DNA of 36,289 nt, from the NCBI GenBank assembly GCA_016201205.1, contig JACQDF010000136.1:1-36289 (forward strand). The letters are read 5' to 3'. The DNA is from Acidobacteriota bacterium. GTDB lineage: Bacteria; Acidobacteriota; Terriglobia; Bryobacterales; Bryobacteraceae. Under the pieces are notes generated by a model. That model did no database searches and had not been told where the DNA came from. It was given only the letters and a program-made list of their open reading frames with translations. How positions within the stretch are numbered: the first letter of the stretch is position 1; every line of letters begins with the position of its first letter. Below are positions 9,811 to 35,490 of the stretch, piece after piece. Both the position numbers and the translations under genes were made by a program.

Positions 9811-10123
9811 GACTTCTTCGGGTCTCACGCTGCGTGCCAGCAACCGGCCGCTGTGATGGCTCGATTAGACCACGCTAACTTAGTTGGAACAAGGCCCTCC
9901 CTTTCTGGTGCGCGGGTTGCGTCAACGCCGTGACAGGGAACACGGAAGCGATTTCGGGAAGCGCAGACTGAGTTTGGCGCGGCTAACCCGAGGTATAGTT
10001 GGCTACGCGTAGAAGTGCGGCAATCGTTCAAATTCTTCGAGATACGGCGTTCTCGTAAACTGAGCGAGCACGTCGGCCATCTCACGGACCGAGCAGACGA
10101 GTGATCCACGCAGAGAGCCCGGC
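9811..10123. other. 313-bp gap without visible gene
   Basis: Short frames here have no protein-like composition. I saw no strong hairpin or repeat. It separates the SIR2-like gene from the next minus-strand gene and must hold the SIR2 promoter. Confidence 0.5.
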
Positions 10124-13412: not shown

Positions 13413-14081
13413 GGTCGTGTCTTTCGACACCCACAACGAGTTCCGCTTGGCGGCCTTCCCGCTATCTGGTGCTGAGGAGGAGTGATCCGTCCCTGTAAGC
13501 TAATACCGCGCGAACCGGAGGAATGTGCACTCCAGCCCTGAGCCGCGCGGCGAACAGCATGACCACTACTCCAACAAGTTGGGAACCGAGATTCTGGAGA
13601 GCACTACCTCTCTACCGCAACTCGAAGCGTTCATTTTGTTGACAGCGGCACCCGCCGTCCCTCTCGCCCGTATCCGCCACATTCCGCAGGTTCTTGCGCG
13701 CCCGACGGTTTCTCCAGTTGGAAAGAGACTCCTCGGGGGTGCAGGCTGAACCCCAGGGTTGAGGCCGAACCCCACGTTTTTGCTTGCCAATTCTCTGGTT
13801 TCTCCGGTTGACAGGTCGCGTTTGTTGACGGCCCCGTACAAAGCGGCAGCCAAACGGTGGCTTTTCAAACTGGGCACTTTCACGGACAATGTGAGTCGCC
13901 TGTGCCTACCGGAAATCCCATCTGCGGTCGGACGCGGCCGGTACATAACGACTGCGGACCGGAGACTCGTTCGACGCTTCGCCGGGTAAATGGAGGAGCA
14001 CGAGGAATTCACTCTGCGATTGGCTGAAGGAACGGGTCATTTCGTTTCGGGCAGCGAGGATCGGCGCACTGCGGCACAGTT
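13413..14081. other. non-coding gap with paired short repeats
   Basis: No convincing gene in about 670 bp. Two imperfect direct repeats are visible. GTTTCTCC(A/G)GTTG occurs at 13708-13720 and 13798-13810. Between them AGG(C)(T/C)GAACCCCA occurs at 13743-13755 and 13762-13774. The region lies between the recombinase unit and the end of the defence operon, so it may hold a recombinase site or promoter elements. Confidence 0.4.
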
Positions 14082-16202
14082 TTACGTCGTCGCACTCAGG
14101 TACGGACTCGCCTCGCCGTATGCGGTGATGAGCCCCGAACGCTTGGCGCGGGTCAATGCGACGTACAGTAGTGCCCGCTCGCCGGTCTCGAGATTCCGTT
14201 GCGTGATCGCGTCGTCGCCGGCAGCGAGCGCCATGTCCAGCGGAACGATCCCGCGGTTCGCGCCCGCTACGATGATGTGTTCGAACTCCAGTCCCTTGAC
14301 GCGGTGCATGGTGGCGACTCGAATGCCGGCTCGGTCGCGCTGTTCCGCCGTGTCGCGCTTCACTTCGTAGGTTTCGATCCCAGATGCGCGCAGGTGAGCT
14401 GCGTAGTTTTCAACCAGCTTCTTGGTCCGGGCCACGATACAAATGGATTCCAGCGGCAATCCTTGGGCGACCAGCGCTTGGATGTGCTGTTTAAGGTAAG
14501 CCGCCTCTTCGGCAGCGGAAGCGAAGGTCATGGCTGCGGGTGCAGTGCCGTGCGTCAGGGACATGTAGCCCTTCTGATCGTCTTGGCCTCCGTCCAGGTC
14601 GTCTATTGGACGGCCCTCCAGGAGACGGACGGCGAAGCGGCGGATCTCGTCGGTAGTGCGGTAGTTGATCTTGAGCTTCTTGCCACGGCCACGGATATCG
14701 ATTCCACACTTGCCGAGCGTCACGCGATGGCGATAAATTCGCTGGTGCGCGTCGCCGACGATGAAGAGATCGTTCTCCCCGGCCGGGACAATAGTCCGCA
14801 GCAGCCGGAAGGCTTCTGCGCTCAGGTCTTGCGCTTCATCCACGATCACCGCGCGGTACGGGAGCCTTAGGGCCTTGTTCTCAATGAACTGCCGCGCGTC
14901 CCGAATTAGATCAACATATTCTTTCTTTCCGCCCTCATTCAACTGTGCGCGGTATTCTTGAAAAACGGGCCAGAGCTTCTTCTTCATGTCGCGGCTGAGG
15001 CGAGTACCCCTCCCGATTCGCGGAGCTGCCAGGTATTCATCGACGCTGGTAATGTTCTGCGCCTGGACTACGCTCTCCCACTCCACGCGGTAGAAGCTCT
15101 CAAGCAGGCCCGATTCCGCCGGTGCCTGATCGAGTGCGTTCCGCCAGCAGTCGTTGTCTGCGTTGTAGACGACCTCTGGCCGGTAGCCCTGCGTTCGCAG
15201 GAAGTTAGCCACCCATCCGTCAAGATGCTGGACTTCAATGCGCGCCCACGCTCTTTCGTCCCCGCAGAGCTTGCGCAGGTTTTGCGATATGTCGGTCGCG
15301 AGATTCTTGGTGAATGTGGTGAACAGAATCCGGTCTTCCTTGCCGGTGAAGACCTCCTCGGCGAGGTAACGCGCGCGGTGCATCGCTACGACCGTCTTGC
15401 CTGTACCGGCCCCGCCGAGTACGCGAACCGGGCCGCCGGCCCGCATCCGGACTAGCTGCCGCTGCTTTGGATGCAGAAAGATTCGCCACTGCTCCAGAGG
15501 CGCGGTAAGGATCTCGGCCAGTTCCTGCGACCCCTCTACGATGTGGAACCGCCGCTGCGAGTCCTCGTTGCGAAGCGCCTTGTCGTAGTCGGAGGTATCG
15601 ACGGCCTGGGCTTCCTCCCGCGGCTTCTGCATCTCCCCAAAGACCTGCTCCAGCGTGTAGCCCGATGCCAGCAGGAAGAGAGCTTCATAGGCCTCCTGCG
15701 GGATCGCCGATTCCGCCCGCTCCATGTCGGCATCCGTATTCATCGATCTCACCACCGGCAGCAGTTCCTCGGGCACGCCAAGCTGAAGCAGGTGTTTGTC
15801 CTTGACGGATGCAAACAAGGCGCCGAGTCGTGGCACGGCGGCGACTGGTACGGCCGCGATGGCGGCGGGAACTGCCGTCATGTCGAGCACCTGGACGGCG
15901 CCGGTCGCCGGGTGAACTTCAAGTCGCTTTCTTTCCGCCCAGCGGTATGCCTCATCGTGGTGATCCACCCACATAAGGACGCACACGCTCGGATCCGGCT
16001 TTGCGATCACTGCCCGGTAGGCTTGGTCGATCCGAACCGAATAGAAGTTCTTGTCCCGAGCGCTCTGGATCGGCTCGTAGTTGATGCCATCCGATTCCGG
16101 GTGAACCTGGAAGCGCTCGAAGAACTCCCTCACCTTTTTCTGGTGCGACTTCTGCACATTAGAGAATGCCAGCAGGAAATCCTTCGAAAGGGCGATTGTC
16201 AT
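14082..16202 (-). CDS. UvrD-like (SF1) helicase with RelE/ParE-like N-terminal domain
   Basis: The 706-residue protein has two parts. Residues 1-95 (FSNVQKSHQKKVREFFERF, NFYSVRIDQAYRAVI, LMWVDHHDEAYRWAE) have the length, basic pattern and YRA / HDEAY elements of the RelE/ParE toxin fold. From about 235 it is an SF1 helicase: HPKQRQLVRM (Q motif), GGAGTGKT at 263-270, FTTFTKNLA, VIVDEAQDLS (about 460), IVGDAHQRIY, NYRTTDEIRR, TMHRVKGLEFEHII and ALLYVALTRAKR. ATG 16202 directly follows the stop of the DUF1998 helicase, with GAAAGAAGAG ahead, so it is the last gene of the operon. The RelE-like part may bind RNA/DNA rather than act as a toxin. Its catalytic state is unknown. Confidence 0.85.
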   Translation of the reverse strand: MTIALSKDFLLAFSNVQKSHQKKVREFFERFQVHPESDGINYEPIQSARDKNFYSVRIDQAYRAVIAKPDPSVCVLMWVDHHDEAYRWAERKRLEVHPATGAVQVLDMTAVPAAIAAVPVAAVPRLGALFASVKDKHLLQLGVPEELLPVVRSMNTDADMERAESAIPQEAYEALFLLASGYTLEQVFGEMQKPREEAQAVDTSDYDKALRNEDSQRRFHIVEGSQELAEILTAPLEQWRIFLHPKQRQLVRMRAGGPVRVLGGAGTGKTVVAMHRARYLAEEVFTGKEDRILFTTFTKNLATDISQNLRKLCGDERAWARIEVQHLDGWVANFLRTQGYRPEVVYNADNDCWRNALDQAPAESGLLESFYRVEWESVVQAQNITSVDEYLAAPRIGRGTRLSRDMKKKLWPVFQEYRAQLNEGGKKEYVDLIRDARQFIENKALRLPYRAVIVDEAQDLSAEAFRLLRTIVPAGENDLFIVGDAHQRIYRHRVTLGKCGIDIRGRGKKLKINYRTTDEIRRFAVRLLEGRPIDDLDGGQDDQKGYMSLTHGTAPAAMTFASAAEEAAYLKQHIQALVAQGLPLESICIVARTKKLVENYAAHLRASGIETYEVKRDTAEQRDRAGIRVATMHRVKGLEFEHIIVAGANRGIVPLDMALAAGDDAITQRNLETGERALLYVALTRAKRSGLITAYGEASPYLSATT

Positions 16203-19200
16203 TTACTCTTCTTTCACCGCCAGAAGCGAGAGGAGCTTCTGCGCGTCATCTTTCAATTCCTCGGTAGTAAACACGGTCCAGCCGATCTGTCGCGCGGCTT
16301 CAGAGCACTCTGCCTGTGCAGCCGTCATCACACAGACCGCTTGGCCAATCCAGGCCAACTCCGCGAACGCAACAATCTCACCGGCGGCGTCCGCGATTTC
16401 GAACCCGGGCTCCGGCAGCGCTCTGCCGGCTTCGTACGCTGCGAACACAAGAGCCCGTGCATCCTGGTCCAGCACATCAGTGAGCAGAATGTCGATGACG
16501 CTGGCGGGCGCCTGCCGTTTGGGTGTGACGGCATCATCCAGCAAGCCGCCGTAAGTGCCTTCGCGAAGTCCGAGCGTCGTCACCCACACCGCGCCGGGCG
16601 CGAACTGGAGGACGTTGCCGGCGCGCAGAAACTCCCGCCAGGCGCCTTTCCAGGTAGCGCCCAACTCAGCAGCTCGGTCATCCATCAGGCGGAGAGTGGC
16701 CGCGATCTCCGCCAGCTTCCATGCCTGTAGATCCGCCAGTGGCAGGCTCACAAACGCGCAGAGATCCTGCCGCGCCATTGTGCGATAGAGCCATCCGGAA
16801 GGCTGTGCCGCTGCATCGACCGCTGTCCAGTCCTCGGCAAGCGCTCCTTCATGGAGCGCCGATCGGATGTCATCGGGCGCCGCTCCCTGGCGCATATCGG
16901 TTTGCAACAGATGGAGCAGCACCGCCTGCGCGAAGCGGTCCCACGCCGCCTGTCTGCCCGCCGTCAGCCGGTACAGCAGCATATCGAACGACGATCCGGC
17001 ATACAGCCGCGACCACGCCACCGAGTTCTCGGCGTCCAGTTGCGCCAGCAGGGCCGCGAAGACCGGCCCGGGAGCGCCACCCAGCGGCGACACCGCCGGC
17101 TGCGGCTTATCCAGCCGCTCGTACACATCGCTCCAGGTCAGCGACCACGCGCAGTACTTGCCAGACCGCGCGATGGCGAGCCGCTGCGCGGAATCCTTGC
17201 CGGTCCGCATCTTGCCGCCCACCGGGTCCGCGTGCCACTCGTAGCCATCCGCGAACAACGCGATTGGAAGCTCACCAGGGTAGGGCCGCTCCGGGTACAG
17301 AACGAAATCAGCGCGTGACGGCACGCTGACCCCCTTTTCTGGCCCCAACTCCACTTGCGGTTCAATCAGCCAGTTACCGTGGTCGGGGATCTTCAAGTAC
17401 CAGCCCTGCTTGCCGTTCACGACCTGCGGTGACAGGCCACGCGTAGCCTCGCCCTCCCGGACACGGCGCAGCGCCTCCAGAAAACTCGCTTCCAGTTCGC
17501 TTTCCAGCAGCCGGTTCAGCCGAATCGTTTCCAGGCGATCCGTGGTCTTCAGCTTGTCCCAGTTCTCCAGAATCGAGCGGAGCAGGTCGAGCGCGGCGGT
17601 CCGCGACGTCGTGCCTTGGAAGTGCCGCCCACGATAGGCCAGCAGGCACACGTAGCAGCCGTCCTTGCGCTCGTCCAACCGGCACTCGCAAACGGAAAGA
17701 GCATCGTACGCCTTTTGGAACACTTCCCGGAGCTGCCCCGGATCGCGCATCAGCTCCCTGAGATACCCGGTACCACCCGGCACGCCGTCGTACAGCACGA
17801 GATACCGCCGCCTGGACTCACTGCCTTCGATGGGCTCGTCATATACGGTCGTGTTCAGATGCCCTGGGTCGCCCTGAAACTTCTTCCGCAGCCCAAGCTG
17901 GAGTGCGGCCACAAACGATTCGATGTTCCGCTCGATCTCGGTCGCGGCCACCGGCAACAGCATTCGGATCGCTTCCGATGTGAACTCCCGGTACAGGTAG
18001 CAGGCTCGTACCGCCTTCTCCTTCTCGGGATCCTTGCGGTAGCGGCACCATGGCGAGTGAGCCAGTTCGCCGTTGCGGCGCACCTTGCCGCAGGCCTCGC
18101 ACAACTCGAACGACCGGGCCGTGCGCTCCCGGCCGGCTACCTGAATCCGTGCGCCTCCGCCGGTGGATTCACCAAAGTTCACTTCCCGCAGCGTGATCTT
18201 GCGGAAAAACTCGAAGCCGAACGGCACCTCGTCGCAGTCCAGATACCAAGCCTCCGTCACATCCTCGTCGTTCTTGAGGACGAACATGTTCTTGTCGTAG
18301 AACTTCGGCTCCCGTCCATCGCTCTCGTCGAAGGAACGGCTGGTCCGGTCCTCCGTATTGGCCATCACCTCGCGCATCCACAACAGAGTCTGTCGCTGGC
18401 CTTCGTCCGACCACAGCGTGTGCCCGCACTTGGGGCACGCCGGCTGTGATTCGTGCTCGCCTTCCCGTTCCATCCACGTACAGTTCGCACAGAGCCGCCA
18501 CGCCACCAGATCCTCGCGCTCAAAAATCACGCCGTCAACCGTCACCTTCCGGCCCTCGGCATAGAAGTTGTTTGCCGGCGCCAGTTCTGCGATAGCCGCG
18601 GAGGCTGGGCGCACGTACTCATACGTCCGCGTATCGTATCTCCGCTCCGGGTCGGACTCGCTCTTCCGCTTCCGGTAGATGACGGACCGCAGAGTGATGC
18701 CCTGCTCCGGGAAGGCATAGTTCGGCAGCAGGCCCTCATCCGTAAGGAAGTTCAGGACATTCCGGTCGCGCAGATTCCTAACCAACACCTGGAGCGCAGC
18801 CTTCTCCTGACGGAGCTCGTCCAGTTCCTTCTGCCGGTCCTCTTCGCGCATGAGCGTATCATCCTGCACCTCCCGAATGCGCCTGTTGAGAGTCTGCACG
18901 CGACCGCGCCAGTTCTTCAGCTCCTTGACGCGAACCCGCAGCCCGTCCAGCAGTCCGTAACGAAGCCCCTCCTCGCCTCGTGAGAAGGCGAGCAGCCGCT
19001 CACGGGTCCAGTCGGACACCTCGGCGCCGAACATCGCCAGGAATCCATCTTCCAGCGCGGTCCGGTTCAGCTCAAAGTACGTCAGCAGATTCCAGGGGAA
19101 CGCCTCCGGCGGCCCGCCCCTCTCGACGGAGTCGATCACCGGCGAGAGTTTGTCCGGGATGGCGCCCGCCTGGAGCCCGGTCTCCACCCACCGGCCCATC

Positions 19201-19751
19201 GTGAACGCCGTGAACTGGCGTTCGAGAACCGCCGACGCGTTCAGGTAGCAGCCCGGCGACTCCACCCGCCCCTGCAACATCTCGTCCGGCTGCTGGAAGA
19301 AGAACAGATCGTGAGGGCGGGCATTGGCAATTGCCACGATGAAGGCGTTGCCGTGCTTGCGGCCGGCGCGCCCGGCCCGTTGCAGATAGTTACTCGACTT
19401 CGGCGGGACCGAGCACATTGCCACCGACGAGAGGTCGCCGATGTCCACACCCAGCTCCAGCGTCGGGGTGCAGGAGAGCAGGTTTGGATCACCCGGCTTC
19501 TCCCGCTTCTCAAAGCCGATTTCCACCGCTTCCCGCACCTCGCGCTTCAGCAGTCCTGTGTGCTCCTCGGCGAAGATGCGAGCCACGTCGCCCGCCTGGT
19601 ACAGCCGGCCGTAATAATCCTCAACGCGCGGCTGTTCGCGCAGGGTGCCGGTCTTGCACGCCCCGTGCGGGCACAGACCCGCAGCCATCCACTGCGCCGC
19701 TTCCGGCCCCACCGAAAGCATCGCACTGGTCGCAGCGGAGCTGCCGCACAT
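16203..19751 (-). CDS. DUF1998 helicase, C-terminal part (downstream of frameshift)
   Basis: This frame continues the protein begun at 22533. True coding from it starts near 19719 (SVGPEAAQWMAAGLCPHGAC); the ATG at 19751 is only where the frame happens to open. It holds the helicase C domain (SCTPTLELGVDIGDLSSVAM, SNYLQRAGRAGRKHGNAF) and a coiled-coil region (about 18750-18900). Cys pairs follow (CANCTWME, CPKCGHT, CEACGKV), then the DUF1998 region (LVLYDGVPGGTGYLREL, CECRLDERKDGCYVCLLAY). After that RADFVLYPE...IALFADGYEWHAD resembles a Vsr/PD-(D/E)XK-like nuclease fold. Whole-protein length is about 2,109 residues, the size of Druantia DruE. The last part (16203-17100) is a helical unknown. 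The stop abuts the UvrD-like start. Confidence 0.82.
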   Translation of the reverse strand: MCGSSAATSAMLSVGPEAAQWMAAGLCPHGACKTGTLREQPRVEDYYGRLYQAGDVARIFAEEHTGLLKREVREAVEIGFEKREKPGDPNLLSCTPTLELGVDIGDLSSVAMCSVPPKSSNYLQRAGRAGRKHGNAFIVAIANARPHDLFFFQQPDEMLQGRVESPGCYLNASAVLERQFTAFTMGRWVETGLQAGAIPDKLSPVIDSVERGGPPEAFPWNLLTYFELNRTALEDGFLAMFGAEVSDWTRERLLAFSRGEEGLRYGLLDGLRVRVKELKNWRGRVQTLNRRIREVQDDTLMREEDRQKELDELRQEKAALQVLVRNLRDRNVLNFLTDEGLLPNYAFPEQGITLRSVIYRKRKSESDPERRYDTRTYEYVRPASAAIAELAPANNFYAEGRKVTVDGVIFEREDLVAWRLCANCTWMEREGEHESQPACPKCGHTLWSDEGQRQTLLWMREVMANTEDRTSRSFDESDGREPKFYDKNMFVLKNDEDVTEAWYLDCDEVPFGFEFFRKITLREVNFGESTGGGARIQVAGRERTARSFELCEACGKVRRNGELAHSPWCRYRKDPEKEKAVRACYLYREFTSEAIRMLLPVAATEIERNIESFVAALQLGLRKKFQGDPGHLNTTVYDEPIEGSESRRRYLVLYDGVPGGTGYLRELMRDPGQLREVFQKAYDALSVCECRLDERKDGCYVCLLAYRGRHFQGTTSRTAALDLLRSILENWDKLKTTDRLETIRLNRLLESELEASFLEALRRVREGEATRGLSPQVVNGKQGWYLKIPDHGNWLIEPQVELGPEKGVSVPSRADFVLYPERPYPGELPIALFADGYEWHADPVGGKMRTGKDSAQRLAIARSGKYCAWSLTWSDVYERLDKPQPAVSPLGGAPGPVFAALLAQLDAENSVAWSRLYAGSSFDMLLYRLTAGRQAAWDRFAQAVLLHLLQTDMRQGAAPDDIRSALHEGALAEDWTAVDAAAQPSGWLYRTMARQDLCAFVSLPLADLQAWKLAEIAATLRLMDDRAAELGATWKGAWREFLRAGNVLQFAPGAVWVTTLGLREGTYGGLLDDAVTPKRQAPASVIDILLTDVLDQDARALVFAAYEAGRALPEPGFEIADAAGEIVAFAELAWIGQAVCVMTAAQAECSEAARQIGWTVFTTEELKDDAQKLLSLLAVKEE

Positions 19752-22533
19752 CGGTAGTCACCTCAAGAGCCTCCAGCGCGATACCCCACACCGGCGCCCC
19801 GCCTGCATCCACCTCGAACACCAGGTTGCTACTCCGCAATTCCTCCAGCACGGCGCGATAAATCGGCACGGTCAGCGGCGGAATGTTCGGGTCGAAGACG
19901 CCGAAAGCCCGCCGCAGCCAGGTGGTGTGCCAGCTCAGCGTGCTAGTGCTGCCGGAGAGCAGCGGCAGAAACCTATTCCTCCCGCTACTCACCACCAGAA
20001 ACTCGGGCAGCCGCGATTGCTTCCCGAACCGCGGCATGTACCGGTCCCGCCCACCGGTGTGACTGAGCAGGTAGTACTCGCCAAAACCTTGCAGGTAGGG
20101 CAGCAGTTCAGGATGCCACACGCCCCCGCGATTCTTCAGGTTAAGTAGGAACCCGTGCAGGAACCGCCGCACTGCGTCCAGCCCGATCTCCCGCAGCCCG
20201 CCGATCTCGTTCTGCAACCTGACCAGAACCGCCGCGGCCGCCGCCTCGAACGCCTCCAGTCGCGGTTGCACGGTGGACGAGCCCGTCTTTTCCAGCGACC
20301 GGCCGATGCGGCAGTTGTGCGTGTACTCGCTCCAGATCTCCCAATCCAGCCGCTTGCGCACCAGCGCCGCAAGCTCGGAACCAGGGGGCAGCACGCCCTG
20401 ACGGCGGAGTTGTTCATATTCTTCCAGCCATTCCATGTCAGGCGGAAGGAACGTAGCCACAAAGCGCCCCGGGCGGTCGTACTCCTTTTCCCAGCGCTCC
20501 AGAAACAACCGCGGCAAATCGGGCAGCGGCAGCGGCCCCGGCGTACCCTGCACTACTTTCTGGATTGCCGTCCGCAGGTTAAACCGAAACGTCCGCGCCT
20601 TGAAGAAGCCGGCGCGATGCGAGGCGTCCTGCACGTTGTCCGAAAACGCCAGCAACTTCTTCTCCTCGGGGTTGAACGGCGACGCCCAGAGCTGCGAAAT
20701 CAGCACCGCCGTCAAACTCGCCGCGCGCGAACCGACGATGGTCAGGCTGTTCTTCCCCTGACACGACGGGCAATCGTGCTTTCCTACCATCCGCGCGTGT
20801 CCCCCACCCCTCTTCTCCGACGTATCCGGGATCCACACCCGGATCATCTTCTCCGCCTCCTTGCCGCACCAGGAGCACGGGAGCGCGCTCTCCGCGTGGC
20901 CGAAGTGCAGACATTCCGGACAGAGGAACTGGGGCAGTTCCTCCTGTGCGTCCGGCCCGAACTCCCCGGGGAAGAGGAACCGCACCTCCGACTTCCAGTC
21001 GAAGAACGCGCGGTAGAAGATGTTCAGTTCCGGGTTCAGCCGGTCGTCGGCGTCCTTCACCGTCCCCGCCCACCCGATCAAGCCGCATTCCCGGCAGTGA
21101 GTCACCGGCAGGCTATGCTTGAGATCCTCGGTCTTGAGGTCCGCCGCGAAGGCCCACTTGGGAGTCGGCCCGACGCTCGAAACGACCCGCGCCAGTTCCC
21201 GCATCCAGAACTGATACCGCACTTGGATCATCGGCTGGGGCCCGCTCGGACCGGCAATACGTGCCGCCGAAACCAGTGCCAGGAAGCTCCCCAGCACCAG
21301 TTCCACGTATTCCGCATCCGGGCTGCCGTAAGCCGGCAAAACGGCTCCCAAGCGCTCCACCAGTTCGGTGGATTCCATGGCCGTGGACGTCATGGAGGCA
21401 AGTAACCTGCGGAGGAACCCGTGCGACCGCAATAGGCCCGCCAGCGCCCGTTGCCATTCTAGCGAATCCGGCGTACCCGTGGCGTCGCCGAACCACAGCC
21501 GCCGCTGTGCGTCCAGATATTCGTTCGGGTTGGCGTAGCGGAGCGGGTTCAGCACGTCTTTCGCTTCCGGACCCGGCGTGCCCGCATAGCGCACCCCGGC
21601 GCCGGCCAGAAACTCTGCGGGTGTCTGCACCGATTCGCCGATCACGCTGTCGGAGTCGAAGGTTTCGCCGAAAACCTTGCCGGCATATTCCACCAGTTGC
21701 GTCGCCGAGACCGCTGCGTCGCTCCCCAACGTGGCCGAGGTCCCCACGCAGATCAAGTACGCCTTCGGAGTCCGCAGCCGTTCCTTAAGTCGCCGGATGA
21801 GGCAGGCCACGTCCGCGCCCTGCGCTCCGTCGAACGTGTGCAGTTCGTCCACCACCAAGTAGCGCAGGGTGTCTGGCCCGTTTCTCCGCCACAGCCTAAG
21901 GTCCTTTGGCCGCAACAGCAGGTAATCCAGCATCTTGTAATTGGTGAGCAGGATGTCCGGCGGTGCGTCCCGCATGGTGTCCCTGTCGGTGATCACGCGC
22001 GATTCCGTCATCGCCGCCGTGGGCACTTGGTCCTTCTCACCCAGGTACAGCCCCGCGGTTACGCGCCCACGGAGCGCATCGCTGCGGTAAATCGCTCCCG
22101 CGATGCGCCCCGCCTGGTCGGTGGCCAGCGCGTTCATCGGATAGATCAGGATCGCCTTGATGCCGCGCTGGTTGCGGTGCTGGTAGCAGTAGTCGAGGAC
22201 AGGGTAGAGGAAGCACTCGGTCTTGCCCGACCCCGTTCCCGTGGCGACCACCGTGCTCTTGCCGACCTTCCAATCCAGGCGCTCCCACGCCTGCTCCTGG
22301 TGGCGAAATGGCCGGAACCACTCCGGCACTGCGTCCGGAAAAAAGGGCCGGGCACTTGGCGAAGCGGTGAACGGGAGCTTGAGCGAGATGTAAGGACCGC
22401 GGAAGACTTCTCCCGGGCGCGCCAACAATTCGTCCAGTGCTCCAGCGAAATAGGGATTGGTAATCGGAAAGGTGGTGCGTAGAAACTCTTCAATGCCGCG
22501 CCGGACCTGCGCGCCGATGACGGAGGGGATCAT
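19621..22533 (-). CDS. DUF1998 helicase, N-terminal part (upstream of frameshift)
   Basis: The start is ATG 22533 (MIPSVIGAQVRRGIEEFL), overlapping the methyltransferase stop as ATGA, with GGAGG 5 bases ahead. The frame upstream to 22590 is not used. Motifs: FRHQEQAWERL (Q motif), TGTGSGKTE (Walker A, 98-105), VVDELHTFDGAQGADVA (DEXH-type Walker B), CVGTSATLG (motif III), and a 4-Cys cluster (HCRECGLIG...CPECLHFGHAESALPCSWCG). Near 19719 a one-base insertion in a T-run (minus strand) breaks the frame after CDQCDA, so the ORF runs on into meaningless sequence to 19621. Removing one base restores a 2,110-codon frame. It may be an inactivating mutation or a sequencing error. Confidence 0.82.
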   Translation of the reverse strand: MIPSVIGAQVRRGIEEFLRTTFPITNPYFAGALDELLARPGEVFRGPYISLKLPFTASPSARPFFPDAVPEWFRPFRHQEQAWERLDWKVGKSTVVATGTGSGKTECFLYPVLDYCYQHRNQRGIKAILIYPMNALATDQAGRIAGAIYRSDALRGRVTAGLYLGEKDQVPTAAMTESRVITDRDTMRDAPPDILLTNYKMLDYLLLRPKDLRLWRRNGPDTLRYLVVDELHTFDGAQGADVACLIRRLKERLRTPKAYLICVGTSATLGSDAAVSATQLVEYAGKVFGETFDSDSVIGESVQTPAEFLAGAGVRYAGTPGPEAKDVLNPLRYANPNEYLDAQRRLWFGDATGTPDSLEWQRALAGLLRSHGFLRRLLASMTSTAMESTELVERLGAVLPAYGSPDAEYVELVLGSFLALVSAARIAGPSGPQPMIQVRYQFWMRELARVVSSVGPTPKWAFAADLKTEDLKHSLPVTHCRECGLIGWAGTVKDADDRLNPELNIFYRAFFDWKSEVRFLFPGEFGPDAQEELPQFLCPECLHFGHAESALPCSWCGKEAEKMIRVWIPDTSEKRGGGHARMVGKHDCPSCQGKNSLTIVGSRAASLTAVLISQLWASPFNPEEKKLLAFSDNVQDASHRAGFFKARTFRFNLRTAIQKVVQGTPGPLPLPDLPRLFLERWEKEYDRPGRFVATFLPPDMEWLEEYEQLRRQGVLPPGSELAALVRKRLDWEIWSEYTHNCRIGRSLEKTGSSTVQPRLEAFEAAAAAVLVRLQNEIGGLREIGLDAVRRFLHGFLLNLKNRGGVWHPELLPYLQGFGEYYLLSHTGGRDRYMPRFGKQSRLPEFLVVSSGRNRFLPLLSGSTSTLSWHTTWLRRAFGVFDPNIPPLTVPIYRAVLEELRSSNLVFEVDAGGAPVWGIALEALEVTTDVRQLRCDQCDAFGGAGSGAVDGCGSVPARGVQDRHPARTAAR

Positions 22534-23843
22534 GCTTGCCTCCACGCGAACTCGGCCCATACGGTGCGGTAGTCTTCCTCGCGATCGCACTGGTCAAAAG
22601 GAGCTTCGTAGACGATGGTGCGGTCGCGCCGGCCACCGGGCAGCGTGTCGTCCTCGATGGTGCGCTCGATAGTGGCTTGGTTGCGCTTCTTCTTCCAGTC
22701 AGGGGTGGAGAGTCCGTACGACTGGTCGCCATCGAGGTAGACGATGCGGCCGTTGCGGTCGTAATACGTGTTGCGCTCGTACTGGCGCAAGACGGGGAAC
22801 TGAATGCGGTAGATGGTGCAGAGTTCCTCAACCGTGAGCCCGAGTTCCATGGCGACGAGCACGTCGATCTCGACGAGGGCCTGGCGGCGTTCGTAGTCGG
22901 TCCGAAGCGGGGTGTCCCAGGACCACTCTGGGGTGAGGATGGAGAAGCGCTGGTCGCGGAGGCGCTGGTCGTCCTTGGCCCAGCGGTCGGCCCTGAAGGC
23001 GGCGTCCCACCCCTCGCGCCAGAGGTCGGCATAGTGGCCGGTCAGGCAGTTGAGGAGGAGGGTGCGTGCGTGTAATACTGCGCGGTTTCCGGAGTGGGGC
23101 GCAAGCACAGGCAGACGCTCAATTAGGGCCCGATTTGCGAAAGCCGCGCCCGTAGTTCGGATGTGAAAATCAGCTATTAGCGAGACGGCGATTGATGCGT
23201 AGTCCAGCAGTAATGAGGGTTGTCGAAAAGCGACGGAGAAGGCGGTGTGCAGATGCCCGCTCCCTGGTGGGATGATGCACCCGATTAGAGTCCTTTCCGC
23301 TGATTGGTTGAGCATTGCTCGATTCATAAATCGATAACAGTCCAAAACTCGCATGCCGGAATCCCACCTCACCGTCGTGGCTCTCGCGCGATACACGTCA
23401 TTGGGACAAGCGGGTACGTAGTTTGTCCTGGGAATATACGATGCGGGTAGGTCGCTAATGTCAATCACCGCGTAATGATTTGGGTCTGTACAGACCCCGT
23501 TCGGTGTTTTCGCGAACGGATTCGCCACGTGCACATGTGGACCGGAAATGATGAAGGAGGTTAGGGAATCAACGAATGCCGTCCCGCGAGCGATTGTCCC
23601 GTCGTCAACCGCGCCGGTTTCATCCCAGAGTCTAGAAGGTGTGTAGTCGCGTTCATCTAGCTGGCCTAATCTGCGCTCGTACCGGGATAGTTTTAGCAGC
23701 ACTGATAGGAGTTCTCGAGAACGTAGTACGGGCAGTTTGGCTCTTATCGGAGGCGTACTGCCGCCGTCATACATTGCAGCGAAAAGCCGGAGGACCTGTG
23801 CGTCTATTTCCACTATCCGACTTCTGTGGCCCGCCGGCTCCAT
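22530..23843 (-). CDS. adenine-specific DNA methyltransferase, C-terminal part (downstream of frameshift)
   Basis: This frame carries the rest of the large methyltransferase. Coding starts near 23848; ATG 23843 is incidental. It reads GHRSRIVEIDAQVLRLFAAM, a target-recognition-like region, then SAERTLIGCIIPPGSGHLHT (about 180-200), SLIADFHIRTTGAAF, LLLNCLTGHYADLWREGWD and a C-terminal helical part ending EEDYRTVWAEFAWRQA. This order is typical of the specificity half of Eco57I/PglX-like DNA methyltransferases. TGA at 22530-22532 overlaps the next start as ATGA. It would be silent unless the frameshift is repaired or artefactual. Confidence 0.75.
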   Translation of the reverse strand: MEPAGHRSRIVEIDAQVLRLFAAMYDGGSTPPIRAKLPVLRSRELLSVLLKLSRYERRLGQLDERDYTPSRLWDETGAVDDGTIARGTAFVDSLTSFIISGPHVHVANPFAKTPNGVCTDPNHYAVIDISDLPASYIPRTNYVPACPNDVYRARATTVRWDSGMRVLDCYRFMNRAMLNQSAERTLIGCIIPPGSGHLHTAFSVAFRQPSLLLDYASIAVSLIADFHIRTTGAAFANRALIERLPVLAPHSGNRAVLHARTLLLNCLTGHYADLWREGWDAAFRADRWAKDDQRLRDQRFSILTPEWSWDTPLRTDYERRQALVEIDVLVAMELGLTVEELCTIYRIQFPVLRQYERNTYYDRNGRIVYLDGDQSYGLSTPDWKKKRNQATIERTIEDDTLPGGRRDRTIVYEAPFDQCDREEDYRTVWAEFAWRQA

Positions 23844-26800
23844 TTCCCTGCATGGTCTTTCCGCCCTTCGACGGTCCCGTATCCTTCATGCGCATAGCTC
23901 GTGTCGATCGTGGTGGGCCAGAACACATCGGCAACCATGTCGAACTTTGGGTCCCTTGGTTGCCCCAATACGCTGACCTCAAAACGCATGCGACCGTGGT
24001 CATTGAGGCCCTCAAATAGCGGAATCTCGTTCTCAAACTGGAACCAGTACCGCAGGCGCGGGTAAAGGTACTCTCGAAGGAGACCGCCCTTTGGATCGCT
24101 GAACATGCCGTCGTCGTGCACGTACGCCGACACGCGCGCCAGTTCCGTTGACATCTTCACAAAACACTTGAACGTGTTCGACTGCCCCCCCAACAGCAGT
24201 GGATAATTCTGCTTCGCATTCAGAAACGCCTGCGTGCCAGCGAACTGCGCGTACTCGTCCAGATAGAGGTCGCGTAACTCGGGGTGCTTCGCCGTCGCTT
24301 CCTCGCGCAGTTTCGCCAGTTCGGGCGCAGAGAAGTCGTGCAAAATGTAGAGCGGCTGCACGTCACCCATCACGGCCCCTTCGTTCCACTCCACTTTGAT
24401 CCAGGGCGGGTTCCCAAGGATCAAGTCAAAGCCGCCCGCGTCGGCGAAAATATCCGCAAACTCCAGTTCCCAATGCAAGAACTTGTACTTTCCAGCTATC
24501 TCGCGCACCAGCGTCAGGCGCTCAGAGCCGTTGCAGAAATCCTTGACGTCCACCAGGCCGTACTCGTCGGCTACCGTAAGGCTCGGCTGCTCCGGGCCAA
24601 ACATTTCGCCCTGCGTGCGGCGGATCGACTGCGCGGCCCGGACTGTCCCTTCCAGCACCGACCCCACTTCGAGTAGAAACTCGTGCCGCGTCGGCAGCAG
24701 GTGGGCTTTCTCGATGGGCCAGAACCAGAGCGCACACCAGTAGTCCATCAAGAATCGCAGCCGCTGGTACGCGGTGGAAGGTCCCTGGTCCGGATGAATG
24801 GCTTTGCGGAAGATCGCATCCCGTTCCCGCGTGGTCAGCTTCTGGCCGCGCTCGTCGCGGGCCCGCTGCCCCCAGACGGCGAAGTCGTGCGCGGTCCGTG
24901 CGCGTGCATTCCGGAGGTCCTCCATGTGGTGGGCCCAGAGGTGGTCTACGGCCTCACTCAGCCGCACGAGCGTGTCGGCCTCCGCGGTATCGAACTTCTC
25001 GCAGAATGCTTTTCGCCACTCGGAGATCCACTTCATCTCCTTCGGGCACATCGTCTTCACCACCTTGTCCCCGTAGTGGGACATGTCCTTATCGGGCACC
25101 AGGAAATGATAGACGGCATCCTGTGCGCGGATGCCGCCGGTCGGAATCCGCTCTGGGACGGCCTCCAACCACGGTCGCGACTTGTCCGTCAACTGCCCGC
25201 GCCGGAACACCTGGCGGCGCGCGCCGATCAGGCTGTTGCCCACTGAAAGCTGGCCGCCGAACCATGGGATGCTGTGGCCCTGGTAAATCGTGTTGAGCCA
25301 CAGCGAGATCTCGGCCAGTTCCACCGCCACTGGATTCTGGTCCACGCCGAATACACGGTTGTCCGCCAGGAATGCCTTTACCTTCTGGCGCTCCTGTTCT
25401 AGGTCGCTCTCGGGAATGCGGCGTTTCAGTTCCGCCTGCTTGCCTTCGAGGTACGCATCGGCGAGCTGGTTAATAGCTTCGTTCAAGAACGCGCCGCTGC
25501 CGAGTGCCGGCTCGCACACCGTGAGTTGCAGAATCTGGTCCGCCTTCTTGCCCTCGAGCAGTTCCTTCAGCGCATACTTGACCACGCACTTGGTTAGCAC
25601 CTCCGGCGTGTAGTACGAGGCCGATTTCTGACGGCTGCGGCCGCTCAGACGGTAGATAAATGTGCCTTGCGGATAGACTTTGGCGCGCCCCGTCTCGTCG
25701 TCGTAGACGATCTCCGCGGACTCGTACTGGCTCAGGTCCTCTTTGCTGACGAACCAGGCCTGGTCGAGCAGGTTGACTTCTTTGGTTTCCGCCTTCTTTA
25801 CCTCGTAGAGGTCGGTCTTGGCGAAGAATCCGGTGTAGGAGAGCAGTCCTTCGTAGACCGCGCCGAGCTGGTTGATGCCGAGCTGCGCGTAGCTGATGCG
25901 CCCCCGCCCGAGCGCGGACCCTTTGCGGGAGTAGCCGAGCAGTTCGAGCACCTGCTGGAGCACATGATTGCGCAGGCGGACGCGGCACAGCGTGGGGGTG
26001 CGGGCGTCGTCAAAAAGATCGCCTTCGAGCGGTTTCATCTCGAAAGTATGGACCAGGCTGCGTCCGCCGGCCCCGCTTGCGGCGGCCGCGAAGGTCATCT
26101 GTTCTTGGGGCGCGAAGCCGCCGTAAATGAGCTTGAATAGGGTACGGATGGACGCGTCGATAAAGTAGCCATTGCGGCTGCGCTCGGTATCGAGAGGCGC
26201 GAGCGCGAGTTCCCGCAGGCTCTCCAGGCTGTAGCCGGTGCGGTACTCGTCGCTATCCATGGGGGCGTAGCCGAGCGCCGGGCGCGCCTCCACATAGAAA
26301 AGGAAGAGCAGCCGGTAGAGGTAGCGGAGGCATTCGCGGCTGAGGTCTTCAGGGGCGAGGACGCCGTACACCTTTTCCTTCAGTACCTCCCGCAGGTAGT
26401 AGCGGGCTTCATTCCCGACCCGCTCGATGCACTCGCGCGCGCTGTACTTCAGGTCTTCGGAGACTTTGGCAGCGTGCTTGTGGGAGCCTTCGTCGAGACG
26501 GTCCAGCAGGTTGTTGCCGTCGCGCGGGGAGATGCTCTCGGCTCCGGCGAGCGCAGGCAGGAGCCGGGTGGCGTCGTTGCTGGTGAAGATCCGGTCGAAG
26601 TGGAAGCGCAGCAGGCGGCGCTGCGGCCACTTGGTGCGGTCGATGAGAACAAGCTGGCCGGCATGGAACAGCAGCACCCAGCGCGGCGGCTCCTCGCCGG
26701 CGAAGACGTGTTCGGTGAGGACATCTTCGAGCGTGGCGTCGCCGGTCCATTTCAGATCTCCCTCCGGAGGAAGCTGCTCGCGCAGGAAGGGCAGGGACAG

Positions 26801-27193
26801 CGGATCGCCGAGTTCGTTGGTGGCGTCCAGCGCTTCGACGAGCCAAAGTTCGGGCGAACCGTCGGCGCGGGTGATTTCGCCGGCGATAGGGATCGCGATG
26901 CCGTCTTCGCTCTCGCGCACGCCGGGCTGCCACGGATAGCCGAGGGCGTCGAACAGGGTGCGAAGCCAGGCGCGCTGGCAATCGAGCCGCGCGGCCGGGT
27001 CGGTTAGCCCCTCCAGTTCAGCGTGCATCGCGGGCCAGGCGGCGCCGCAGCGGCGGACCGCCTCGACGGGCGAGTCCGCGGCGGCTGTCCATTGTGCAAA
27101 GACGGGACGGAGGTCGTCTTCGAGCACCGAGTCGATGTAGTGATCGGTGTAGAACTCCCTCTCGTTGGTGATGCCGGTGAGATCGAGCGCCAT
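23813..27193 (-). CDS. adenine-specific DNA methyltransferase (DrmMI/PglX/Eco57I-like), N-terminal and catalytic part
   Basis: This is the main part of a roughly 1,554-residue N6-adenine methyltransferase. ATG 27193 (MALDLTGITNEREFYTDHYI) is preceded by GGGGAGAG and lies 2 bases after the SNF2 gene. SYYTPEVLTKCVVKYALKEL (about 526) and the SAM-binding CEPALGSGAF (560-569) are followed by VFGVDQNPVAVELAEISLWL and the catalytic NPPW (928-931, LILGNPPWIKVEW). The frame fails near 23848, after DHAGKW, where one base seems lost from a G-run (TGGGAG to TGGAG). The next frame continues the protein. The length without the missing base is 4,664 nt, one short of a multiple of three. Family role: host-DNA protection in modification-based defence. 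Confidence 0.85.
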   Translation of the reverse strand: MALDLTGITNEREFYTDHYIDSVLEDDLRPVFAQWTAAADSPVEAVRRCGAAWPAMHAELEGLTDPAARLDCQRAWLRTLFDALGYPWQPGVRESEDGIAIPIAGEITRADGSPELWLVEALDATNELGDPLSLPFLREQLPPEGDLKWTGDATLEDVLTEHVFAGEEPPRWVLLFHAGQLVLIDRTKWPQRRLLRFHFDRIFTSNDATRLLPALAGAESISPRDGNNLLDRLDEGSHKHAAKVSEDLKYSARECIERVGNEARYYLREVLKEKVYGVLAPEDLSRECLRYLYRLLFLFYVEARPALGYAPMDSDEYRTGYSLESLRELALAPLDTERSRNGYFIDASIRTLFKLIYGGFAPQEQMTFAAAASGAGGRSLVHTFEMKPLEGDLFDDARTPTLCRVRLRNHVLQQVLELLGYSRKGSALGRGRISYAQLGINQLGAVYEGLLSYTGFFAKTDLYEVKKAETKEVNLLDQAWFVSKEDLSQYESAEIVYDDETGRAKVYPQGTFIYRLSGRSRQKSASYYTPEVLTKCVVKYALKELLEGKKADQILQLTVCEPALGSGAFLNEAINQLADAYLEGKQAELKRRIPESDLEQERQKVKAFLADNRVFGVDQNPVAVELAEISLWLNTIYQGHSIPWFGGQLSVGNSLIGARRQVFRRGQLTDKSRPWLEAVPERIPTGGIRAQDAVYHFLVPDKDMSHYGDKVVKTMCPKEMKWISEWRKAFCEKFDTAEADTLVRLSEAVDHLWAHHMEDLRNARARTAHDFAVWGQRARDERGQKLTTRERDAIFRKAIHPDQGPSTAYQRLRFLMDYWCALWFWPIEKAHLLPTRHEFLLEVGSVLEGTVRAAQSIRRTQGEMFGPEQPSLTVADEYGLVDVKDFCNGSERLTLVREIAGKYKFLHWELEFADIFADAGGFDLILGNPPWIKVEWNEGAVMGDVQPLYILHDFSAPELAKLREEATAKHPELRDLYLDEYAQFAGTQAFLNAKQNYPLLLGGQSNTFKCFVKMSTELARVSAYVHDDGMFSDPKGGLLREYLYPRLRYWFQFENEIPLFEGLNDHGRMRFEVSVLGQPRDPKFDMVADVFWPTTIDTSYAHEGYGTVEGRKDHAGKWSRRATEVG

Positions 27194-27195
27194 GA

Positions 27196-30066
27196 TTACT
27201 CTCCCCGGAACACGGCCGCCACCCGCAGGAAGGCTGCATCCTCGGTGGTCAGGGTGTCCTGCACGTAGGCGGTCCAGTTGGCGAAGATGGCGTCTATCTT
27301 CCGTTCCCGAGCCTGCTTCAGCCGGAGGCGGACGCCGCCGGCCGCGCCTTCGCCGAAATCGATTTCAAGCTGCTGCTTCTTGGCGGTTCGCAGGGCTTCG
27401 AGTTTTTGGCGTTCGGCCTCCAGCTTCGGGAGCATTTCGGAGTTGATGCTTTCGCGGCACCCGGACATGTATTTGCGGCCGTGGGCGACGGCTTCCGGGA
27501 GCAGGGTCCCGGCGGCGGTCACCGCGGGCAGTAGCGCCGGGTTGGCGAACTCGGTGCGGTGGAAACCGGTCCTTTCGAGGAAGGGCTCCAGCGGCTCGAT
27601 GCCGGTGAACTTGCCGGATTCGAAGCGAACGCCAAACCACCGGTGGACCACTGGTTGGCCCTTTCTGTTGGGGGTTTCGCCCTGCATCAGGAAGACCAGT
27701 TCCTGGGAGTCAAGGATACTCTTCAGCGTGATTACCGGTGCTTGCGCGCGGTCGAAGTTCACTAGCAGCTTGTAGTTCATCCACTCGACGGCCGGATGCA
27801 GATCCCAAAGCAAGTGAATGTGCGGCCAAAGACGCTCCTTGCTGTTGCGAGTCTTACGGATCTCTTCCTGGACCAGTTTGGTGTCGCTGGTAAGGTGGAG
27901 GCGGCCGTCGTCGGGCAGGGCGCCTTTGGGCAGCGCTCGCTTGAGGGACCGCTCCAGGTCGCGGGGCAGCGTCAGGCTGACCATCCGCCTTTGTTTGTCG
28001 ATGGTGAAATCGCTGCGGTTGTCGCTGGCCAGGCCGGCGGCGATGTAGTCGAGGTCGGTGGCGTAGAGCGACGGCGTCTTGCGCTTGCGCGAGGGCGCGG
28101 TTTCACCTTTGGGCGGCGGCGCGGTGCCCATCAGGATGGCGAGCAGATCGGCCGCCTTCGCCGACTGCTGCATTTGCTGGTCGAACTGTTCGACGGAGAG
28201 CGACTTCTCGATGGCCTTGCCGGTCTCCAGCTCTTCCAGCACCGGGTCGTAGACGCCGAAGAAGGCAGAAGGGTCGTCGATGTTCTTCTGGGCCTGCTCG
28301 TCCTTTATGGTGAGCAACTCCAGGATGCGCTGGTCGCCGCGGATTTTGGGATTGCTGGATTCGGTGGGGATGTAGGCGACGAGCGGCTGTTTTTCCTGGC
28401 CATACCGGTCGATGCGCCCGTTGCGTTGCTGGAACACCATCAGAGACCAGGGGATATCGAAGTGGATCAGCTTATGCGCGAGGAAGTGCAGGTTGATGCC
28501 TTCGCTGGCGATGTCGGTGGCGATGAGGAGGCGGACGGGCTCCTTATCGCGGCCGAACTCCTTCACTATGTCCTGGAGCTGCTTGTCGCCGCTCTCCTGG
28601 CCGTGCAGCGTGGCGATCTGCGCCGGCTTCAGCTTCAGATCCTTTTCCAGATGCTCCCGCAGGAACTTGAGGGTCTCGACACGCTCGGTGAAAATGACGA
28701 GCCGGTCACCCGACTGTTCGGGGTGCCAATCGAGGTCGCCGCCATTGCGCAGGAGTGTGAGCAGCTTCTGGTACTTGGTGAATTGGGCCGGAGTAATGGC
28801 GTCCACGGCGTCGGCGAGCGTGCGCAGGGTGTCGCGGTCCCGCTCGGCTTCGGGGGTTGCCACGCCTTCGATCTTCTTAAGGCGCTGCTCGATGGTCCTG
28901 CGACAGGCGGCCGGGCTGGAGAAGAGGGACTTTTCGAGCACGGTCCGGAACAGAAGCTGACCGGTCTTCTTCGCCTTCTCGAAAGAGGCGAAGGTGGCGC
29001 GGGAGACGAGATCGTAGGCGTACTCCTCGGCCTCCGACGCCGGGGTGGGCCACCGGTTGGTCTTGCGCTCCAGGAACGCCTTGCCGAGCTGTTCCTGCAC
29101 GTCCTTCTTGAAGCGACGCAGGAACAGGCCTTCGATGTCTTTCGGCCCGTACTCCTTCGGGTTGGCGATCGCCGTGGGGTCCAGCATGTTCATCAGGCTG
29201 GCGAAGGATTCCGGGCGGCCGTCGTGAGGGGTGGCGGAAGCCAGAATCATGGTATCGGAGCGGTCGCCGAGGAGTTCGGCCAGTTTGGCGCGGGCACTCC
29301 TGGTGCCGCGTACGGCGACGTTGTGCGCCTCGTCGATGACAATGATGTCCCAGTAGCTCTTTTCGAGATGGACGCGGAAATCGCGTTCCTGCTTGAGCGT
29401 GTCCACCGAGATGATGGTCTTGTCGTAGTAATGGAATGGGTTGGCGTCGGCCGGAACGTCCTGCCGGATGCGGTCGATGCCGGCGCGGTCGAGGCGCACG
29501 AGCGGGATGGTGAAGCGCGACCACAACTCCTCTTGGAACTGCGTCATCATGCTCTTGGTGGTGACGACGAGGATCCGCTTGCCCTTGCCGCGGCGGATAA
29601 GCTCGGCGAGCAGCACCCCGACCTCGATGGTCTTGCCGAGGCCGACCGAATCGGCCAGCAGGATGCGGTGGCGGATCTGTCCGAGCGCTTGCAGCGCGGG
29701 GTCAAGCTGGTAAGGAAGCACGTCGATGGCGGCGCGGTGGCCGATCCAGAGGTTGGCGTCCGTCGGCGGCGCCTGCCGGAGGAGGCTTTCCAGGTAAAGG
29801 CGGGCGTTGGTGAACCGGGGCGACGTGTCGGGAACCAGTTCGGTGTCTTCCGGGTGGAGGGGCTTGATGTCCCGGTCGATCTCGGCGAGGAAGCGGGCCT
29901 CCTTGCCGCGGACCAACTCGGAAATGCCGGTGACCAGCAGTGAATAGGTGCCGCTGGAAGTCAGGTCGGCTCGCTTGATCACCCACTCGGCATCACGGAT
30001 TTCCACGCGCAAACCAGGAGCAAACACAGCGTCCCGTGCGGGCGCAGGATGATCGGCGGTGCTCAT
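27196..30066 (-). CDS. SNF2-type SF2 helicase/ATPase (DrmD-like)
   Basis: The 956-residue protein starts at ATG 30066 (MSTADHPAPARDAVF) with GAGGGAG just ahead; a TTG four codons upstream is unlikely. Motifs: LADSVGLGKTIE (Walker A, about 138-149), VVTTKSMMTQFQEELW, IIVIDEAHN (DEAH about 245-248), LASATPHDG, DRLVIFTERVETL, LLIATDIASEGINLHFL and VFQQRNGRIDRYGQ. This is the RapA/HepA-like SNF2 layout seen in DISARM DrmD and other phage-defence helicases. The C-terminal third has RWFGVRFESGKFTGIEPLEP and a basic coiled-coil end. It is the first gene of the minus-strand operon. Likely role: ATP-driven DNA translocation or remodelling with the methyltransferase. Confidence 0.88.
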   Translation of the reverse strand: MSTADHPAPARDAVFAPGLRVEIRDAEWVIKRADLTSSGTYSLLVTGISELVRGKEARFLAEIDRDIKPLHPEDTELVPDTSPRFTNARLYLESLLRQAPPTDANLWIGHRAAIDVLPYQLDPALQALGQIRHRILLADSVGLGKTIEVGVLLAELIRRGKGKRILVVTTKSMMTQFQEELWSRFTIPLVRLDRAGIDRIRQDVPADANPFHYYDKTIISVDTLKQERDFRVHLEKSYWDIIVIDEAHNVAVRGTRSARAKLAELLGDRSDTMILASATPHDGRPESFASLMNMLDPTAIANPKEYGPKDIEGLFLRRFKKDVQEQLGKAFLERKTNRWPTPASEAEEYAYDLVSRATFASFEKAKKTGQLLFRTVLEKSLFSSPAACRRTIEQRLKKIEGVATPEAERDRDTLRTLADAVDAITPAQFTKYQKLLTLLRNGGDLDWHPEQSGDRLVIFTERVETLKFLREHLEKDLKLKPAQIATLHGQESGDKQLQDIVKEFGRDKEPVRLLIATDIASEGINLHFLAHKLIHFDIPWSLMVFQQRNGRIDRYGQEKQPLVAYIPTESSNPKIRGDQRILELLTIKDEQAQKNIDDPSAFFGVYDPVLEELETGKAIEKSLSVEQFDQQMQQSAKAADLLAILMGTAPPPKGETAPSRKRKTPSLYATDLDYIAAGLASDNRSDFTIDKQRRMVSLTLPRDLERSLKRALPKGALPDDGRLHLTSDTKLVQEEIRKTRNSKERLWPHIHLLWDLHPAVEWMNYKLLVNFDRAQAPVITLKSILDSQELVFLMQGETPNRKGQPVVHRWFGVRFESGKFTGIEPLEPFLERTGFHRTEFANPALLPAVTAAGTLLPEAVAHGRKYMSGCRESINSEMLPKLEAERQKLEALRTAKKQQLEIDFGEGAAGGVRLRLKQARERKIDAIFANWTAYVQDTLTTEDAAFLRVAAVFRGE

Positions 30067-30109: not shown

Positions 30110-30360
30110 GCAGACGGAGGCGAGGGGAATGCTCAGACGAACGCCGACGGCACCATGGCATGTAGACGACTTTCCCGCAGATGCTCTTAGTAAAAAGGCC
30201 AGACTGTCCAGCCCGGCCAAACAAAGCTGCACATCTTCCAACTCGCCCGAGTATTAGGCCGTTGTCAGGGACGCGAACGCGGCTCGGAACGCCAGATAGC
30301 GGGCAGCCCGCCAAGCGGGACTCGTTGTGGGTGCTGGCCAATCGAGCAACCACAACAGCC

Positions 30361-32476: not shown

Positions 32477-32804
32477 CCGCTTCTCAGATCTATGCGCACC
32501 GCGGCAGGCTCTCGTCCGACTTCTGCAAACCGTCAACTACGGCCAGGTCCGAGGTCTGGTAGTGAGGGCAGGCCAGCCCGTCTTCCATCCGGAGCCCACG
32601 GTGTTGATGGACGTCCGACTGGATTCGGACGAAAGCGCACGCCCTGAGATCGAACTCGCCGACTTTGTGCTTCGCCACGAGGTACGGCGGCTCATGGCTC
32701 AGTTCGACCAGCTCAAGGAGGGGGTGGTCGAACGGATTGAAGTGCGCGCCGGCATACCCAGGCGTGTCCTCATCGAGGCCAACCTCACCGAGGTGAGGCG
32801 ATGA
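32469..32804 (+). CDS. small conserved-looking protein, unknown function
   Basis: ATG 32469 (MTSRFSDLCAPRQALVRLLQ) has GAGG 6 bases ahead and is preferred to ATG 32463 and to the longer frame from 32400. The 111-residue product has GQVRGLVVRAGQPVFHPEPT, a beta-type segment (VLMDVRLDSDE) and a helical, charged C-terminus (LRHEVRRLMAQFDQLKEG, VERIEVRAGIPRRVLIE). It overlaps both neighbours (8 bases upstream, ATGA downstream), which argues for a shared role in replication or its control. The family was not recognised. Confidence 0.65.
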   Translation: MTSRFSDLCAPRQALVRLLQTVNYGQVRGLVVRAGQPVFHPEPTVLMDVRLDSDESARPEIELADFVLRHEVRRLMAQFDQLKEGVVERIEVRAGIPRRVLIEANLTEVRR

Positions 32805-35312: not shown

Positions 35313-35490
35313 CGGAACTGGTCAATTGAATCAATGACTTACGATGGGACTGCCCACGGAACTGGTACGGAACTGCCGACCGTGGGCGGAACCACTCGGG
35401 CGGGGAGAAGTTCCGGTGCAGTTCCGCCTCAGTTCCGTTCGCAGTTCCGCTCTAAGTAGTAGCAAATAAATAGTAGTTCCGTTAGTTCCT
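35312..35490 (+). repeat. phased CGGAACT/AGTTCCG repeats: candidate replication origin or Rep-binding array
   Basis: The 7-mer CGGAACT occurs at 35313, 35357 and 35368 (and CGGAACC at 35387). Its reverse complement AGTTCCG occurs at 35409, 35420, 35431, 35443 and 35475 (and AGTTCCT at 35484). Spacings are 44, 11, 19, then 11, 11, 12, 32 and 9, that is close to multiples of one helical turn. Left copies point one way and right copies the other. An AT-rich patch (about 35452-35475) interrupts the right array. The array begins at the stop of the RepA-like gene. This is the layout of iterons with an unwinding element. Confidence 0.65.

Follow-up and report, generated by a model that had tools for sequence, protein, structure and literature searches.

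The four-gene operon in the 36,289-nt stretch of DNA analysed here (the window; contig G000:C239 of a draft genome that is 94.3% complete and comprises 7.0 Mb over 392 contigs) is almost certainly an ARMADA Type II defence locus, present in a copy that carries two frame breaks. The records with names that lie nearest to the window are Bryobacterales metagenome genomes. ARMADA Type II was described in a September 2025 preprint, whose main text sets out four components in strict order: first a BrxHII-like helicase, then a PglX-like methyltransferase, next a YprA-like helicase and last a GajB-like helicase to which a RelE-like domain is fused. The text presents the system as the link between DISARM and Druantia (Bell et al., PMC12458937). 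We make the assignment because the gene set, the strict order and the architecture match that description. According to the same main text, the E. coli NCTC 12900 system protects against 13 of 80 phages in a non-abortive manner, all four genes are required, the NPPW motif is needed, mutation of the ArmB SAM motif abolishes protection only in part, and a Vsr-type nuclease is predicted at the end of ArmC (PMC12458937).

Four co-directional genes on the minus strand of the window run from 30,066 to 14,082 in the order ArmA-ArmB-ArmC-ArmD (Table 1), starting from the ATG of ArmA at 30066, with junctions of 2 nt (ArmA/ArmB), an ATGA overlap (ArmB/ArmC) and 0 nt (ArmC/ArmD); strand, coordinates and junctions are as the original prediction had given them. 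Pfam domains back its reading of the products as an SNF2 helicase, an N6-adenine methyltransferase, a DEAD helicase with DUF1998 and a UvrD helicase. The RelE-like N-terminus that it gave to the UvrD protein is supported by PHROG 1213 (E 1.8e-6); the Pfam ParE_toxin match (E 0.0032) scores 18.4 bits, short of the 23 required. Among PADLOC models, ArmA is matched best by DrmD (1.4e-98), DrmA (2.1e-69) and BrxHII (1.2e-59), the type IIG model PDLC03614 runs through both pieces of ArmB (168-1142 and 1154-1573 of 1584), and ArmD gives GajB-like matches. Catalytic motifs are found in all four proteins: GLGKT and DEAH in ArmA, ALGSG and NPPW in ArmB, GSGKT and DELH in ArmC, and GTGKT and DEAQ in ArmD. 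Thus the window holds the strict four-gene order, a PglX-like ArmB with SAM motif and NPPW (in a frame-broken gene), a helicase core and DUF1998 in one ArmC (seen on two pieces here and in a single frame in relatives), and a GajB-like ArmD helicase with a RelE-like N-terminus. A tRNA-Cys called by ARAGORN at 16383-16479 lies within the ArmC frame and was taken as a false positive.

Table 1. Positions of the operon genes and of the variable block of ArmB in the window
Feature	Position	Strand	Description
ArmA	27196..30066	-	SNF2/RapA/BrxHII-like helicase; SNF2-rel_dom and Helicase_C (Pfam)
ArmB	22530..27193	-	PglX-like N6-adenine methyltransferase, in two frames; Eco57I and N6_Mtase (Pfam)
ArmB hypervariable block, putative target-recognition domain	22940..24200 (limits approximate)	-	identity drop against G077; blastn gap against L008
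ArmC	16203..22533	-	YprA/DruE-like DEAD helicase, in two frames, with C-terminal extension; DEAD, Helicase_C, MZB (DUF1998)
ArmD	14082..16202	-	GajB-like UvrD helicase; RelE-like N-terminus at about residues 1-87; UvrD (Pfam)

Set beside ARMADA Type II as published (PMC12458937), the window has the same four proteins, order and catalytic motifs, the difference being that ArmB and ArmC are frame-broken in the window. Identity to the copy on the E. coli plasmid pYLPD7b is 45.8% for ArmA, 43 and 39% for the two ArmB pieces, 39 and 38% for the ArmC pieces and 48.9% for ArmD; for a Pseudanabaena copy the values are 45%, 45 and 43%, 40 and 38%, and 47%. In many E. coli, ARMADA is accompanied by Druantia III and Zorya II; a scan of window genes showed neither of them.

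The gene order, which the original prediction had proposed to look for in other genomes, is common: of 5,426 E. coli genomes, 527 match the E. coli operon, with coverage of 80% or more in 513, the annotation of each of the 12 E. coli loci retrieved lists the four genes in this order, and the same order is found in the E. coli plasmid, in Pseudanabaena and in the relative G084. Searching the source genome and 200 relatives with ArmB gave matches at 1e-20 or better in 19 of 201 genomes and at 1e-140 or better in only seven, the source genome included; in the other 12 the best match covers 144-167 residues of the methyltransferase core. The six strong relatives are G084, with a complete and intact four-gene order (locus L032); G077, whose locus L031 has ArmD, ArmC, ArmB and the last part of ArmA, where the contig stops, and whose locus L035, on another contig, has ArmA with the start of an ArmB; G097, G127 and G059, with partial operons cut by contig ends; and G139. 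The viral contigs with an ArmC relative, among the matches listed, have ArmD after ArmC in seven of seven cases and the full order in four (ArmA being cut by the fetched stretch); one of these four, L052, has a 284-aa frame between ArmB and ArmC, and another of the seven, L049, starts at ArmC. Two more of the seven, L051 (363-7207) and L054 (3841-7127), carry two extra frames between ArmB and ArmC (1834 and 355 aa, and 466 and 580 aa, respectively) and are an exception to the strict four-gene packing. In the Bryobacterales metagenome locus L009 (2697-6768), the front of ArmA, up to residue 417 or so, directly adjoins ArmC, the latter starting near residue 555 of P0005, and pieces of ArmD come next; this may be what is left of an ARMADA after a large internal deletion, or else a join made in assembly.

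Within this operon one stretch of ArmB is hypervariable. In windows of 50 residues, the ArmB of the window is 74-98% identical to that of G077 up to residue 1000 and 82-90% identical over the last 137 residues, with 38-57% in between. The same block of G097 is about 29-67% identical to the window and shows a milder drop, to 42-72%, against G077, and the blastn alignment between the window and L008 is interrupted at 23067-24194. The variable block has the same place in ArmB in the window, in its kin and in E. coli, where we compared 13 operons: L005 and 12 loci chosen for diversity (differing coverage) among 60 listed of the 527 records, those labelled O157, O55 and O145 being left out; all 13 were used. 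Mean identity per 50 columns is 96-100% in ArmA, ArmC and ArmD (87% in the last four columns of ArmD). ArmB shows the same 96-100% in its first 1000 columns and beyond column 1500, but only 33-87% in columns 1001-1500. Variable columns number 14 of 952 in ArmA, 381 of 1649 in ArmB (330 of them within 1001-1500), 62 of 2113 in ArmC and 14 of 704 in ArmD, and the gapped columns of the four genes, 25 in total, all lie in ArmB 1108-1433.

The block falls into two halves with separate histories of exchange, as far as alleles can tell. Under greedy grouping at 90% identity, the first half (columns 1096-1255) has 9 alleles and the second (1349-1470) has 11, in 13 combinations among the 13 E. coli operons, counts that hold for this sample only. 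L040 and L045 have the first half in common (99%) and not the second (47%), whereas the pairs L037/L038 and L040/L046 have the second half in common and not the first. L040 and L047 are identical in ArmA and ArmD, 99.7% identical in ArmC and about 100% identical in the N-terminal part of ArmB, with halves at only 47% and 62%. Four-fold sites of this pair differ by 0.80 and 0.63 in the two halves and by 0.03 in the N-terminal part. For the remaining four pairs computed, the four-fold differences are 0.29-0.84 in the unshared halves, 0.04-0.08 in the N-terminal part and 0.14-0.21 in the C-terminal tail. Since four-fold sites diverge together with the halves while the flanks are conserved, this pattern speaks for halves that shuffle independently and are swapped as DNA segments. 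The two halves of L005 also differ in how widely they occur: compared with the 513 E. coli genomes that have the operon, 45 genomes contain 80% or more of the first half and 384 contain part of it, the corresponding numbers for the second half being 6 and 31.

We did not find this block described in print in a literature search that took in the main text of Bell et al. That main text names hypervariability once, in a legend on the island, has no wording on methylation, recognition domains, TRD or frameshifts, and uses the words self and specificity once each, in the references only (PMC12458937). A 2026 review lists ARMADA among methylation-based systems (PMC12904381), so the general idea is already in print; what the search did not turn up is the evidence from ArmB alleles.

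What could the block be? Its first half starts 125 residues past the NPPW motif (971 against 1096 in L005), and adenine methyltransferases of the PglX/MmeI kind have their target-recognition domain in the region after NPPW. A swappable block at the place where PglX-type enzymes carry that domain suggests that ARMADA II marks self by site-specific methylation with swappable specificity; the block is most likely the recognition domain, and methylation the self mark. As the best explanation overall, we consider it likely that the locus represents ARMADA Type II with methylation-marked self and exchangeable ArmB specificity. A precedent comes from BREX, where the C-terminal domain of PglX is reported to set the motif that is methylated and restricted (PMC11341690). 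Structure adds a little in the same direction: the last 611 residues of L008 ArmB gave a model of low quality (pLDDT 55.7, with most of the first variable half below 50), and the Foldseek matches to it at ranks 1-27 are all adenine methyltransferases (M.BseCI, CamA and BREX PglX among them; E 0.012-0.44), none of which reaches 0.001 or is significant alone. A sequence search of solved structures with alignments of the ArmB and ArmC C-termini returned nothing relevant.

A different reading, unlikely in our view but deserving of weight, is that the block does not serve DNA recognition: it might be a surface on which phage inhibitors, DNA mimics for instance, exert pressure, or it might sense proteins of the phage. 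Variability alone is silent on its cause, the fold of the block is poorly modelled, and the DNA mimic Ocr is reported to bind the same PglX regions as DNA does (PMC11341690). Yet whole-segment swaps in two independent halves between conserved flanks are how recognition domains behave, and both the position after NPPW and the weak structural matches to adenine methyltransferases point the same way. A further observation goes against a simple methylation reading, namely that the ArmB SAM-motif mutant keeps part of its protection, as stated in the main text of Bell et al. (PMC12458937).

Taking the block as a recognition domain, we propose a working for intact copies that, as a whole and by analogy, seems to us somewhat more probable than not. 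ArmB would recognise a DNA motif through its bipartite, exchangeable recognition domain and would methylate an adenine there, so marking host DNA. Unmarked DNA would be engaged and unwound by the helicases ArmA, ArmC and ArmD and then cut, probably by the Vsr-type nuclease predicted at the ArmC end, and the cell would not be killed; the RelE-like domain of ArmD may or may not have a part in this. The nuclease step rests on the prediction of Bell et al., because our own model of the ArmC C-terminus (pLDDT 73; best Foldseek E 0.22) has no significant or nuclease match.

The window itself departs from such intact copies at two places. ArmB is open in 23813-27193 and then in 22530-23843, and ArmC in 19621-22590 and then in 16203-19751, neither having a single frame in the window; the ArmB break falls inside the hypervariable block. 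The DEAD/DUF1998 protein of about 2,110 residues that had been predicted is thus obtained in the window only across a break, while its length stands in relatives, where ArmC is one frame of 2113 aa in E. coli and 2146 aa in G084. These breaks may be real decay or assembly error, and the window copy may be dead. Change at second positions is low in the ArmC pieces (0.036-0.045) compared with change at four-fold sites (0.22-0.26), so that any true decay of the window copy would be recent. The same figures, together with the length and conservation of the two pieces in either gene, could also be read as a sign that the breaks are functional, by programmed frameshifting or as split genes. We find this very improbable, as relatives are in one frame at both places: ArmB at the break site in L008, L032 and L034, and ArmC across the break in L007 and L008 and over its full length in L032 and E. 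coli. L008 has an ArmC break of its own at a different place, on Ns of its assembly, and so was rejected as a split common to it and the window.

The original prediction took the operon for a new hybrid of DISARM and Druantia, adding that none of the named systems familiar to it has exactly this composition. Its description of the parts was apt, with DISARM-like proteins (ArmA and ArmB) mixed with a Druantia-like helicase (ArmC) and UvrD/RelE in place of DrmC, and its view that the four proteins form one defence system is confirmed by the published ARMADA Type II (PMC12458937). Profiles that would assign all four genes to one subtype were not found, PADLOC 2023 and NCBIfam 2026 having no single model for the whole set and matching it piecemeal (DrmD, type IIG, DruE, GajB); the assignment comes from the literature. 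Despite these piecemeal matches, we give practically no credence to a new hybrid system, which is ruled out by the set, order and architecture already laid down for ARMADA Type II in the main text of Bell et al. (PMC12458937).

Comparison with each neighbouring system agrees with the assignment to ARMADA Type II. Like DISARM Class 1, the window has a DrmD-like SNF2 helicase and a DrmMI-like methyltransferase; unlike it, helicase and DUF1998 are one protein and not a separate DrmB, no phospholipase D (DrmC) match was found in the six operon pieces, and the NCBIfam DrmD equivalog scores 331.5 bits against a cut-off of 610. ArmC is nearest to DruE profiles in PADLOC, but it resembles E. coli ArmC over its full length (653 bits for one piece and 688 for the other), whereas another YprA-like stretch of pYLPD7b, presumably DruE, matches it over only 107 residues (80.5 bits), a placement made from pairwise and profile scores. 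That stretch (L067, 3032-3352) lies upstream of the pYLPD7b ARMADA with IS elements near, and is absent from the PLSDB gene table. With BREX PglX/BrxX, ArmB has in common an adenine methyltransferase with a C-terminal recognition region, and the model of methylation-based self recognition is borrowed from there; the effectors of ARMADA II, in contrast, are helicases with a predicted nuclease, and no other BREX components were seen among the operon genes. The portion of a 2026 BREX survey that we consulted mentions no ARMADA, DISARM, Druantia, UvrD or DUF1998 (PMC12839542).

The surroundings of the operon have in part the look of mobile DNA. Adjoining its end is a 680-aa serine integrase (11080-13122, minus strand; phrog_95, 3.8e-108) with two C-terminal HTH matches, and further on a stand-alone SIR2-like protein (8638-9843, minus strand; weak PADLOC SIR2 matches, 3e-12), possibly a second defence gene. 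On the other side, at 32801-36289 on the plus strand, are a sigma-70 region 2-like gene, an AAA_25 primase/helicase-like gene (33555-35312; its protein is matched in 1 of 100 relatives) and, truncated where the contig stops, a ParB-like or DNA-methyltransferase-like gene; together they look like a mobile element's replication genes. The ARMADA operon is bracketed exactly by a 42-nt inverted repeat, with arms at 13428-13469 and 30292-30333 that are 93% complementary. The 26-nt core of this repeat has only these two copies in its own genome at up to 3 mismatches and is present in 9 of 101 genomes, its own included, at up to 2 mismatches, and four of the seven core loci fetched from other genomes have a serine-recombinase match within 1.5 kb to the sides, so the repeat may possibly represent ends or attachment-like sites of recombinase elements. 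The exact 42-nt pattern occurs in one of 57 loci searched, a piece of the window itself, and in none of the other ARMADA loci among them, which indicates that the bracket is no general ARMADA feature.

What the window adds is a broken copy of an already known system, from a soil or permafrost lineage, so the main finding is not new; the block of ArmB, not the system, is the part worth following. It bears on how ARMADA tells self from non-self, a matter for which the portion of Bell et al. consulted here names neither a trigger nor a rule (PMC12458937). Such a rule is what one would predict from a block so rich in alleles at the expected site of a recognition domain. With two ArmB half-domains recombining independently, near-identical operons would mark different motifs and restrict different phages and plasmids, an outcome towards which, on the sequences compared, we lean.
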